From NCBI GenBank assembly GCA_900317515.1, contig ONHA01000022.1, positions 1 through 64,000 of the forward strand: a DNA stretch of 64,000 bases, in the 5' to 3' direction. Made by a program: the position numbers and the translations under genes. The notes beneath the pieces were generated by a model. It made no database searches and was not told where the DNA came from. It saw only the letters and a list, made by a program, of their open reading frames with translations. The DNA comes from an uncultured Eubacteriales bacterium. Lineage in GTDB: Bacteria > Bacillota > Clostridia > Lachnospirales > Lachnospiraceae. The first letter of the stretch is position 1. Each line of letters opens with the position of its first letter. Positions 29,535-33,624 of this stretch are shown here, piece after piece.

Positions 29535-29568
29535 GGACGGTTCTGACGAGGTCAGAACCGTCCGTTTT
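29535..29568. terminator. Terminator, GGGACGG-family palindrome
   Basis: Perfect 13-bp arms GGACGGTTCTGAC (29535-29547) and GTCAGAACCGTCC (29551-29563), then GTTTTT. Its right part overlaps the end of the convergent pepT gene. Confidence 0.8.
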
Positions 29569-30814
29569 TCGTTGAAAGCTCCACCAGATTGAGAAGAATC
29601 TCGACATTCTTAACCATGGACTGGATCGGCACGTACTCGAACCGGCCGTGGGCATTTTCGTAGCCGGCGGAGAGGTTAGGGCATGGGAGTCCCCGGAAGG
29701 TCAGCGCGGACCCGTCCGTGCCCCCGCGGAAGGGCTCGCACACCGGGGTGAGCCCCAAAGCGCTGATCGCGGCCTTAAGGCGCTCCGTAAGGTGCGGGAC
29801 CGTGTCAAGGACCTCCTTCATGTTGCGGTACTGCTCCGTGATCGTGACGGTAACCGTGTCCGGGCCGTAGAGTTTGTTCAGAGTTTCGGCAATTTCATAC
29901 AAAAGCGCCTCCCGCGCGGCAAACGCCTCCGCATCGAAATCCCTGATGATGAGGGAGAGCGCGGCGTTCTCGCATACCGCGGAGCAGGAGATCATGTGAA
30001 AGAAGCCCTGGGTGCCTTCGGTGTACTGGGGCTTTTCATTTTTCGGAAGTGCGTTCATGAACTCCGCGGCGATGTCGACGGCGTTCTTCATGATCCCCTT
30101 GGCGGTCCCGGTGTGGACGCTTCTGCCGCGGATCGTGACATGCGCCTCGGAGGCGTTGAAGGTCTCGTCCTCGTACCAGCCCAGGTGGTCCCCATCGAGC
30201 GTGTAGGCGGTCTTTGAGCCGAAGCGGTCAAGGTCCAGCGTGTGGGCGAGCCCGCCGACCTCCTCGTCGGGGGTGAAGGCTAGCGCGATGGGGCCTCGGG
30301 GAATCTCCGGGTGGGCAAGGAGGTGCTCCGCCATCGTCATGATCGCGGCGATGGAGGCCTTGTCGTCCCCGCCTAAGAGCGTGGTGCCGTCGGTTAAGAT
30401 GAGGTCCTGGCCGACGTAGAGGCTCAGGTTTTCGTAGTCGGCGCGGTGCATGATGATATTTTTCTCTTTATTTAAAATGATATCGCCGCCGTCGTAGTCT
30501 GTGAGGACCCAGGGGCGGACATTTTCCCCGCTTGCGTCCGGGGCGGTGTCCATGTGGGCGATGAGGCCCAGGGGCTCTGCCTCACCGGGCAGGTTCGAGG
30601 GGATCTTGGCGTAGACCACGCAGTTCTCCTCGTCATAGAAGACGTCGGAGGCTCCGATTTCCCGGAGCTCCCGGAAGAGCACCTCGGCGAGGTCCCTCTG
30701 GCGGGCGGTCGTCGGCCAGGTGCCTTCGTAATGGGCTGACTGGGTGTTGATTTTTGCGTAGCGGATGAGGCGGTCTTGGACCTTTTCGTAGATTGACATG
30801 CTGCTCTCGCTCAT
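29552..30814 (-). CDS. pepT: Peptidase T (tripeptidase)
   Basis: 420 residues (415 if the ATG at 30799 is used). M20B metallopeptidase motifs: LIAHMDTAPDASGENV (zinc His and catalytic Asp), DGTTLLGGDDKAS (bridging Asp), FTPDEEVGG (catalytic and zinc Glu), LDGDHLG, and C-terminal AGYENAHGRFEYV (zinc His). The enzyme removes the N-terminal residue from tripeptides in the cytoplasm. The start overlaps the pepC stop as ATGA, so the two peptidases are coupled and probably finish breakdown of imported peptides together. Confidence 0.95.
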   Translation of the reverse strand: MSESSMSIYEKVQDRLIRYAKINTQSAHYEGTWPTTARQRDLAEVLFRELREIGASDVFYDEENCVVYAKIPSNLPGEAEPLGLIAHMDTAPDASGENVRPWVLTDYDGGDIILNKEKNIIMHRADYENLSLYVGQDLILTDGTTLLGGDDKASIAAIMTMAEHLLAHPEIPRGPIALAFTPDEEVGGLAHTLDLDRFGSKTAYTLDGDHLGWYEDETFNASEAHVTIRGRSVHTGTAKGIMKNAVDIAAEFMNALPKNEKPQYTEGTQGFFHMISCSAVCENAALSLIIRDFDAEAFAAREALLYEIAETLNKLYGPDTVTVTITEQYRNMKEVLDTVPHLTERLKAAISALGLTPVCEPFRGGTDGSALTFRGLPCPNLSAGYENAHGRFEYVPIQSMVKNVEILLNLVELSTKNGRF

Positions 30815-32124
30815 CGGAAATCGCTCTCCCAGGCCGGAATCTCCTCCGCGGGGGCCGCAAGAAGGGCAGCCTGGCGCTCGTCAAGGAGCGAGCGGTGGAT
30901 GATCGCCTCGTAGACGTACTCCCGGAAATAGGCCTCGCTGCAGACGAAATATCCCTTGTCGCCGACCTCGCCGCCCCAGCTGTTCTCGATCTTCCAGCGG
31001 TTGGGCCGGCCGTTCTCATCGAAGTTGACCCCGACCAGGATCATTGCGTGGGTCGCGTAGCTCGCCATCGCGCGCAGGCGCTCGCCCTTCTCCATCCGGA
31101 GGCTCACGCCGCCCATGATGCCCTCGAAATTGAGGCTCGCGGGGTCCCAGACGCCCGCCTGCCGGTCGCCGAAGGCGCCCGAATCGCACCCGAACCAGAC
31201 CGGCATTCCGCTCTTGAGCTGCCTTACGCAGAGGTCCTCGAGCTCGTCCATCGTGAGGTTCAGGTTGTCGACGTCCTTATCCGCCATCGAGCCGATGTAG
31301 TGGAAGCGGTAGTGGAGGTCCATCGGAAGGCCCGGCGTCGGATGGTGGGTGATCGTCGCGTACTCCCTGAGGTCAAGGCCGATGAACTGTTCATAGAATG
31401 TCTTCGGGGTGAGGCCGCGGTTTTTATGGTAGACCCCGTCCGCATCCCGGTAGTCGAAATCAAAGGTTCTGACGGGCTCACCGAAGACGATCGAGAGAAC
31501 CTTGTAGATCTCGGCGAGCATTTCATTTTTACGGATCTCCGTGTCCTTTCCGGCCTTTGCGAGCTCCCTGAGCTCATAGGCGTCCTTCCGCACCAGCACC
31601 ATGAACTTCTTCATGAAGGTGTCCGTGTGCTCCGACTGGTAGGACTCGGGCATGGCGCTCTTCGGCACGGCCCCGTATTTTTTGACCAGGTCGGCCGCCA
31701 TGTCCCAGTAGCCGCCGTCGCCGAAGCCCTTGAAAATATACTCCGTCATCCGGTCATTGTAGGGGAGGTCGGCGTGCTCGACGGCCATCGAAAGCACGTT
31801 GTTGGCCTTCTCAAATTTGTCGTAGAAGGAGAGATAGTTGCCGGAGAGGGCAAAGTCGGTGAGGCCGGTCTTCTTGATGACCTCCTCGCGGAGTATGTTG
31901 AGCGCGGCGAAGAGCCAGCAGCGGCCGCTCTTTTCCTGGGCGGTGATGCCGTGGGTTTTTATTTCCACCTCAAAGCTCCCGGCCAGCTTTGCGGCCTCCG
32001 TCGGCACGAACGCGAGGTCCGCCATGGGCGTCTTCGCCATCGCGGCGGTGAGGGCTTTTGCGGCGGGATCATTTTCATAGTTCATGCGGAATGTTTCGAT
32101 GTCGGAAAGAGAGATTCCGTTCAT
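30811..32124 (-). CDS. pepC: Aminopeptidase C (C1B, bleomycin hydrolase family)
   Basis: 437 residues after AAGGAGG, close to the usual ~445. The papain-like active site is intact: Q63 and C69 in TAQEKSGRCWLFAAL, His in YATHAMILVGV, and Asn in KIENSWGGEVGDKGYF. The family forms hexamers with the active sites inside and a C-terminal tail that sets aminopeptidase specificity. Here the tail ends in ESDFR. First gene of the pepC-pepT operon. A cystatin-like lipoprotein is encoded 0.7 kb away, though probably in another compartment. Confidence 0.95.
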   Translation of the reverse strand: MNGISLSDIETFRMNYENDPAAKALTAAMAKTPMADLAFVPTEAAKLAGSFEVEIKTHGITAQEKSGRCWLFAALNILREEVIKKTGLTDFALSGNYLSFYDKFEKANNVLSMAVEHADLPYNDRMTEYIFKGFGDGGYWDMAADLVKKYGAVPKSAMPESYQSEHTDTFMKKFMVLVRKDAYELRELAKAGKDTEIRKNEMLAEIYKVLSIVFGEPVRTFDFDYRDADGVYHKNRGLTPKTFYEQFIGLDLREYATITHHPTPGLPMDLHYRFHYIGSMADKDVDNLNLTMDELEDLCVRQLKSGMPVWFGCDSGAFGDRQAGVWDPASLNFEGIMGGVSLRMEKGERLRAMASYATHAMILVGVNFDENGRPNRWKIENSWGGEVGDKGYFVCSEAYFREYVYEAIIHRSLLDERQAALLAAPAEEIPAWESDFR

Positions 32125-32808: not shown

Positions 32809-33624
32809 ATGATAAAGCGCTTTTTTAAGAAGATGATCGCCGCCGCGGCGGCAGGTGCCCTCACACTTTCCCTTATGGCCTGCGGCGGAGGCGGCAGTAC
32901 CGGGAGCACGGCGGCTGAGAGCACGAAGACCGAAAGCACGAAGACCGAAAGCACGAAGACCGAGAGCGCGGCGGCCGGGAGCACAGCCGCGGAGAGCAGC
33001 GCGGCGGAATCTCTTCCCGCAGAGGAGAGCTTCGCCGGGGAAGGAGAGGATGTGATCGTCGGCGGATGGAGTCTGAATACGGAAGGCACGGCCGTTGAGG
33101 GCAACCCGGATCTCGAGGATGTCTTTTCAAAGGCGGTCGAACCGATGACGGATTTTCAGTACGAAGCGGCAGCGATCCTCGCGACCCAGCTTGTCTCGGG
33201 GACCAACTACTGCTTCCTGGCCAGAAAATGCGCTGCAGCCCCGGACGCAAAGCCGACATTTGAACTTCTCTATGTGTACAGGGATTTTTCCGGCAATGCT
33301 TCTGTTCTTCAGGAGACGGAGCTTATAGGGGAGGGAATGCTCGGGAGCTTTGAAGTGAACGACGGCGCCATTCCGGCCCTGGAGAACGAGAACGTGAAAA
33401 ATGCCTTCGACAAGGCCACGGAAACCCTTCTGGGCGTCAACTATGAGCCGGTCGCCTATCTCGCAAAGCAGATCGTAAACGGCACGAACTACATGATCCT
33501 CTGCCGGACGCAGGTCGTCTCCCCCGAGGCGGTCCCGGAGTTCTCCCTTGTGACCATCTATGAGAGCCTTGACGGGAACGCAAAGTTCGGAGAGAGCGAA
33601 CCGATCGAGATTGGTGTAAGCTGA
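32809..33624 (+). CDS. Lipoprotein with two cystatin-like domains
   Basis: 271 residues after AAAGGAGGAAGG. The signal peptide ends in LMAC (C25). Residues 30-80 are a Ser/Thr/Glu linker with three KTEST repeats. Residues 84-173 and 179-271 are two related domains. The first begins GGWSLN and contains QLVSGTNY (127-134); the second contains QIVNGTNY (221-228). The QxVxG loop followed by TNY, after an N-terminal glycine and a helix, is the hallmark of cystatins, inhibitors of papain-like proteases. Surface-exposed inhibition of host, dietary or bacterial C1 proteases is inference. A structural role of the fold is the alternative. Confidence 0.75.
   Translation: MIKRFFKKMIAAAAAGALTLSLMACGGGGSTGSTAAESTKTESTKTESTKTESAAAGSTAAESSAAESLPAEESFAGEGEDVIVGGWSLNTEGTAVEGNPDLEDVFSKAVEPMTDFQYEAAAILATQLVSGTNYCFLARKCAAAPDAKPTFELLYVYRDFSGNASVLQETELIGEGMLGSFEVNDGAIPALENENVKNAFDKATETLLGVNYEPVAYLAKQIVNGTNYMILCRTQVVSPEAVPEFSLVTIYESLDGNAKFGESEPIEIGVS
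32920..32964 (+). repeat. Three 15-bp tandem repeats in the lipoprotein linker
   Basis: AGCACGAAGACCGAA at 32920-32934 and 32935-32949, and the same unit ending in GAG at 32950-32964, coding STKTE. Confidence 0.85.

Follow-up and report, generated by a model that had tools for sequence, protein, structure and literature searches.

Cystatins are textbook eukaryotic inhibitors, and members of the family block papain-like proteases in animals and plants. Related proteins also occur in bacteria, where stefins and cystatins fall under MEROPS family I25. In passages of their survey, Kordis and Turk described both kinds of protein from bacteria, with stefins in, among others, Clostridia and Oribacterium (Kordis and Turk, 2009; PMC2784779). 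The same passages report a scattered distribution and a domain triplication in Polaribacter, and propose a role in defence against host proteases. The gene described here lies in a window of 64,000 nucleotides, the whole stretch of DNA that was analysed, and its product is a member of a real, Pfam-invisible family of stefin-like tandem lipoproteins.

Layout and predicted fold of the tandem lipoprotein

The initial annotation placed an open reading frame at 32809-33624 and read it as a lipoprotein with the motifs GGWS, QLVSGTNY and QIVNGTNY; a lipobox and all three motifs are present in the sequence. The features of the gene are as follows, with the basis of each in brackets:

32809..33624, + strand: double-cystatin lipoprotein of 271 aa with two tandem cystatin-like domains (ORF, sequence, repeat comparison, model)
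32809..32883, + strand: lipoprotein signal peptide with lipobox LMAC (residues 22-25), Cys25 being the predicted lipid anchor (sequence; lipobox of most relatives)
32884..33060, + strand: linker rich in Ser, Thr, Glu, Lys and Ala, with STKTE repeats, about 59 residues (sequence)
33061..33330, + strand: cystatin-like domain 1, GGWS ... QLVSGTNY ... RDFSGN (single-domain model, Foldseek)
33187..33210, + strand: predicted first binding hairpin of domain 1, QLVSGTNY, residues 127-134 (model, conservation)
33280..33297, + strand: predicted second binding hairpin of domain 1, RDFSGN, stefin-type, without Trp (model, conservation)
33343..33621, + strand: cystatin-like domain 2, GSFEV ... QIVNGTNY ... 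ESLDGN (two-domain model; identity to domain 1)
33469..33492, + strand: predicted first binding hairpin of domain 2, QIVNGTNY, residues 221-228 (sequence, motif conservation)
33562..33579, + strand: predicted second binding hairpin of domain 2, ESLDGN (sequence, conservation)

The ATG is preceded by the Shine-Dalgarno-like aaaggaggaagg. Domain 1 starts at residue 85 with GGWS and domain 2 at residue 179; both are about 90 aa long and they are homologous, sharing 36% identity over 80 residues with an E-value of 1e-18 in a single comparison. Judged by their sequences, the two domains are true repeats, which bears out the tandem arrangement first proposed. Cysteines are found at position 25 in the lipobox, at 135 and 141 in domain 1 and at 232 in domain 2. 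A nitroreductase-family gene lies before the cystatin gene and two ABC transporter genes lie after it. Also upstream, at 29552-32124 on the minus strand, genes for a Peptidase T and a PepC-type aminopeptidase adjoin each other.

At E<=1 the window protein matches no Pfam family, cystatin included, and PF00031 finds no match at E<=10 in the bacterium's own 2.7-Mb genome. Among 64 family domains, 12 are matched weakly by PF00031, with a best E-value of 0.0082. The small stefin-like ORFs of L020 and L021 were tried as a bridge to PF00031 and rejected, as they have no Pfam match at E<=5. PDB sequences were searched as well. With domain 2 as a single query, Dictyostelium cystatin-A2 was retrieved at E=0.029, and a nine-domain profile gave 15 matches at E<=10, of which ranks 1-10 are cystatins or stefins throughout, though no match is significant by itself. 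The 64-domain profile gave 30 matches at E<=10, and ranks 1-23 are all cystatins or stefins (a few, such as CPI and mialostatin, judged by name), with a best E-value of 3.8e-4; three chorismate mutases stand among the last seven.

The initial annotation had called for an AlphaFold model to be compared with cystatin structures, and the models, searched with Foldseek, display the cystatin helix-on-sheet fold. Both the two-domain region (mean pLDDT 92.9, pTM 0.88) and domain 1 alone (pLDDT 94.4) are predicted as a helix on a four-stranded sheet, with the helix wrapped by the sheet in the order beta-alpha-beta-beta-beta-beta. In domain 1 the elements are E3-5, H16-26, E32-45, E47-58, E66-74 and E80-89, which puts QLVSGTN on the beta2-beta3 turn and RDFSGN on the beta4-beta5 turn, the sites that the two protease-binding hairpins occupy in cystatins. 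For the two-domain model, Foldseek returned three PDB matches at E<=0.001: phytocystatin 2mzv (2.1e-5), fetuin-B (6.5e-4) and the NTF2-like protein 3ub1 (6.5e-4). The rmsd in this search was large (16.2 for the best match), in our reading because of domain orientation, and the single-domain model was therefore made. With domain 1, ranks 1-8 are all cystatins, namely sialostatin L2 (two entries), Fasciola type-1 cystatin, cystatin E/M, oryzacystatin, ricistatin, Al-CPI and chicken cystatin, at probabilities of 0.98-1.00, E-values of 0.01-0.13 and TM-scores by query of 0.54-0.66. A ketosteroid isomerase follows at rank 9, and none of the domain 1 matches reaches an E-value of 0.001, the best being 0.01. 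Individual matches are modest, and as a group result the predicted cystatin fold is well supported. The idea that the cystatin-like fold arose by convergence and that the QxVxG match is a coincidence draws on the silence of Pfam and on the weak matches to NTF2-like and other sheet-helix folds, but it is very improbable given that cystatins fill the first 23 ranks of the 64-domain profile and that motif, topology and second hairpin coincide.

As to the class of cystatin, each window domain has a Gly ahead of the helix (GGW in domain 1, G-S-F in domain 2), a strict QxVxG first hairpin and a second hairpin without Trp, the last being a feature of type-1 cystatins (stefins). The second hairpin had been called unclear in the initial annotation; its Trp is indeed absent, but the hairpin itself is present in both domains, in the stefin form RDFSGN or ESLDGN at the beta4-beta5 turn. 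Whereas type-1 cystatins are single-domain, intracellular proteins that lack a signal peptide, the window protein is a tandem with a lipobox signal peptide, and it has neither the PW second hairpin of type-2 cystatins nor enough Cys per domain for their two disulfides. Type-1 cystatins are also free of disulfides, and in the window protein Cys135 and Cys141 of domain 1 might form a pair. The name cystatin therefore holds at the level of the superfamily, with stefin-like as the more exact term.

Relatives and conservation of the binding segments

Homologues were sought in a contig collection with patterns based on the helix and on the second hairpin, and at least 44 loci (L037-L080) were found. 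Because identical proteins were dropped (L037, L057, L059 and L064), counts per protein cover 40 of the 44. Most of these relatives have two domains (28), while 10 have one, one has three and one has four. Lipid anchoring, implied by the name lipoprotein in the initial annotation, is a common trait, with a lipobox in 29/40 by rule and in two more by eye (L050 and L052). Five others appear by eye to carry ordinary signal peptides (L038, L043, L045, L047 and L048), L075 has a transmembrane segment, L056 is cytosolic-looking, and L078 and L079 are ambiguous.

The distribution of the cystatin-like family is scattered. The bacterium itself is placed in the Lachnospiraceae by two identities, one between the L010 domain and L037 and the other between the L012 protein and L057. 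At E<=1e-4, and with the bacterium's own genome included in each sample, members occur in 28/397 Lachnospiraceae genomes, in 8/291 genomes of the class sample and in 3/299 genomes of the phylum sample, one of these three being a 44-aa fragment; within the genus, they occur in 18/42 genomes at E<=0.01. RUG, hRUG, RUI or RGIG names, which denote ruminant sets, appear in the titles of 28/44 listed loci, eight of which name a ruminant; these are raw counts rather than a measure of enrichment. Carriage by mobile elements was considered and rejected: the phage search gave no match to the family, none was confirmed among viral contigs, and a single distant plasmid match was obtained, a tandem cystatin-like protein annotated as hypothetical in Aureibacter tunicatorum (Bacteroidota), where it is encoded at L152:2974-3537 on a plasmid of 615 kb. 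A separate group of stefin-like frames of 85-95 aa without a signal peptide was observed in five Lachnospiraceae genomes of 5.6-6.9 Mb (L103-L106 and L108); a GGW lies close to their start, replaced by GSW in L108, and C1A genes are present in all five genomes.

Since the patterns used in the scan lie outside the first-hairpin segment, the scan did not select for it. Among 74 domains from the proteins of the 40 relatives, 70 carry Q-x-[VTI]-x-G-x-[NK], 68 carry QxVxG and 67 carry QxVxGxN; in a stricter set of 69 domains (>=50 bits, >75 aa), the loose motif is found in 67 and the strict one in 65. An alignment of 64 rows was built with an 80% identity cut, with the motif-less L078 and L079 left out and the two window domains added. 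In this alignment, 10/16 of the most conserved columns fall within the 17 wedge positions (1-3, 43-50 and 74-79, assigned by reference to cystatins) out of 90 (p=1.6e-5), a result flattered by the omission of L078 and L079. A repeat with 73 rows, including weak domains, L078 and one L079 domain, again placed 10/16 conserved columns in the wedge (p=1.6e-5). When the second hairpin, as part of the scan pattern, was removed from the wedge, 8/14 conserved columns fell in 11 positions of 84 (p=9.1e-6); both p-values are generous, since the wedge positions were picked after the alignment had been seen and the rows are related. The N-terminal Gly is retained as well, with Gly1 in 69/69 and Gly2 in 65/72 of the rows that have a letter there. 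The binding segments pointed out in the initial annotation, QxVxG and the N-terminal Gly, are thus kept across relatives beyond what a chance motif would give.

Exceptions do exist. QxVxG is gone from the second domain in L012, L015 and L101. In the tandem relative L107, it is absent from both domains and the fold is kept. For tandem members, the two-domain alignment covers 27/30 two-domain stretches, with L052, L068 and L079 left out. A single Cys after GTNYxxL (alignment column 54, residue 232 in domain 2 of the window protein) is kept in 52/64 domains.

Possible targets and the sigma-factor context

The predicted layout is that of a surface lipoprotein whose two stefin-like domains would be carried outside the cytoplasmic membrane by a flexible stalk. 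In each of them the N-terminal Gly, the Q-x-V-x-G hairpin and a second x-G hairpin would make up the classical wedge, and this wedge most likely fills, in a reversible manner, the active-site cleft of cysteine proteases of the papain family (C1A). With two domains, two proteases might be bound at once, and in kininogens, which have tandem cystatin domains, two proteases can be bound. Inhibition of some C1A enzyme is likely. That the double cystatin inhibits papain-like proteases and that its target lies outside the cell is a narrower claim, and slightly more probable than not. Several observations speak against this reading: domain 2 begins with GSF rather than GGW, some relatives are hairpin-less, Pfam does not detect the window protein, the two-domain model also matches an NTF2-like protein, single-domain structural matches are modest, and the genome has three C1A-type genes of its own with exported-looking products. 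The likely external targets would be enzymes of rumen or gut ciliates, of the host or diet, or of competing bacteria. Among ciliates, the strongly bacterivorous rumen species Entodinium caudatum highly expresses C1A proteases and also produces a protein that resembles cystatin B (PMC6925433).

The target could also lie closer to home, in that the protein might restrain the bacterium's own surface papain-like proteases and so spare its envelope. Its genome does hold three genes for C1A-like proteins that were judged by eye to be exported, and lipoprotein and enzymes alike would then sit on one side of the membrane. Yet cystatin genes do not track C1A genes, which occur in 12/28 cystatin-bearing and 173/369 other Lachnospiraceae genomes (p=0.70) and in 11/18 cystatin-bearing and 15/24 other genomes of the genus (p=1.0), a few matches at this threshold being possibly PepC. 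Without the five carriers of small stefin-like frames, the first fraction becomes 7/23 (p=0.14). Moreover, a phmmer search with the five C1 proteins of the bacterium found no C1 peptidase gene in the flanks of L037-L080, which span up to 8 kb a side. This lack of tracking makes an outside target more likely and is still compatible with a role on the strain's own enzymes; such restraint is nonetheless unlikely, and control of bacterial C1 peptidases, one of the functions offered in the initial annotation, is weakened. We infer that protection from outside proteases is the better fit. The product of the neighbouring PepC-type gene was also considered as a target and rejected, PepC being intracellular and C1 peptidase genes being absent from the flanks of the 44 loci.

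The papain-like frames of the genome were themselves read by eye. One of 588 aa is exported-looking with a dockerin-like tail (L030, C60:13281), one of 426 aa is a lipoprotein (L031, C37:2854), and one of 790 aa has a sortase-like C-terminus (L032, C24:6239-7165). Two PepC-type genes are also carried by the genome.

The surroundings of the relatives bring in a further possible function. In 11/40 loci (L039, L042, L044, L045, L046, L048, L051, L063, L067, L069 and L075), the cystatin gene has an ECF sigma gene as its direct neighbour or, in L067, at a distance of one gene, and Pfam Sigma70 models match all three that were tested (L042, L044 and L075). With the exception of L075, each of these 11 sigma genes is adjoined by a DUF4367-like gene, a label that stems from one Pfam match over the cut-off (L044) among three membrane genes, with none for L039 and L042 and the fused L050 below it. 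The same DUF4367-like domain, with its ISGDYxxY-type motif, is found both on membrane genes beside ECF sigma genes and fused to cystatin domains in L046, L048, L050, L052 and L063. At L075:6734-8570, an ECF sigma gene is followed by a gene for a membrane protein in which the cystatin pair forms the outer part, after the transmembrane segment; Pfam gives no match for this protein, and its place and layout suggest that it may be an anti-sigma factor whose ectodomain consists of cystatin domains. Sigma genes fill 10/151 near gene slots (within two genes) vs 2/292 far ones (p=5.7e-4, relatedness uncorrected), as counted over a non-overlapping ORF set from 42 loci in which overlapping frames hide the sigma genes of L048 and L063.

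These links raise the question of whether the domains serve mainly in an ECF sigma/anti-sigma module, where they would sense or bind a ligand, rather than as an inhibitor. The neighbouring sigma and DUF4367-like genes, the fusions, the L075 layout and the gene-slot enrichment would all fit a sensor, as would L107, in which the cystatin fold is kept and both hairpins are gone. However, the window cystatin gene has no sigma-gene neighbour, there is no sigma gene in 29/40 loci, though some contigs end nearby, and the loci are related, so that the gene-slot test overstates their independence. Furthermore, a mere sensor has no need of conserved protease-binding segments, and a mainly sensory role is unlikely. 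The two functions may also be combined: the tethered tandem cystatins of Bacillota could form a system for sensing and defence, in which the lipoprotein would trap external papain-like proteases and, in some lineages, the same domains would feed an ECF sigma/anti-sigma pathway that turns attack into response, although this is improbable. No report of a sigma-factor link of cystatin domains was found in the literature searched. Under the preferred reading, inhibition of outside proteases, the family would be a scattered set of Pfam-invisible, membrane-anchored tandem cystatins of gut and rumen bacteria that may protect them from being digested by ciliates, host or diet. For some relatives, the sigma-factor link would add a testable means for bacteria to notice proteases.

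Comparison with known systems

By single domain, a close likeness is to Dictyostelium cystatin-A2 (8gqq) and type-1 cystatins or stefins, with which the family shares a near full-domain alignment (profile 5-85 of 89), QxVxGTNY and a second hairpin that lacks Trp. Those proteins are single-domain, whereas the window protein is exported and duplicated and, by eye, has a longer beta3-beta4 loop. Tandem domains are likewise found in the two-domain phytocystatin 2mzv, the best Foldseek match of the pair, with 11% identity in the alignment, and in kininogens and multicystatins, all of which are eukaryotic and not known to be lipid-anchored. A tethered tandem form with a sigma-factor context was not found in the literature searched. 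With the bacterial stefins and cystatins, the family shares cystatin-superfamily domains and a scattered occurrence in bacteria, while the lipid-anchored tandem pair of the window family and the sigma-factor context and DUF4367-like fusions of its relatives are not described in the passages of that survey, and the word lipoprotein is absent from its main text (PMC2784779). Bacterial cystatins have been known since 2009, and what is new here is their membrane-tethered tandem form.
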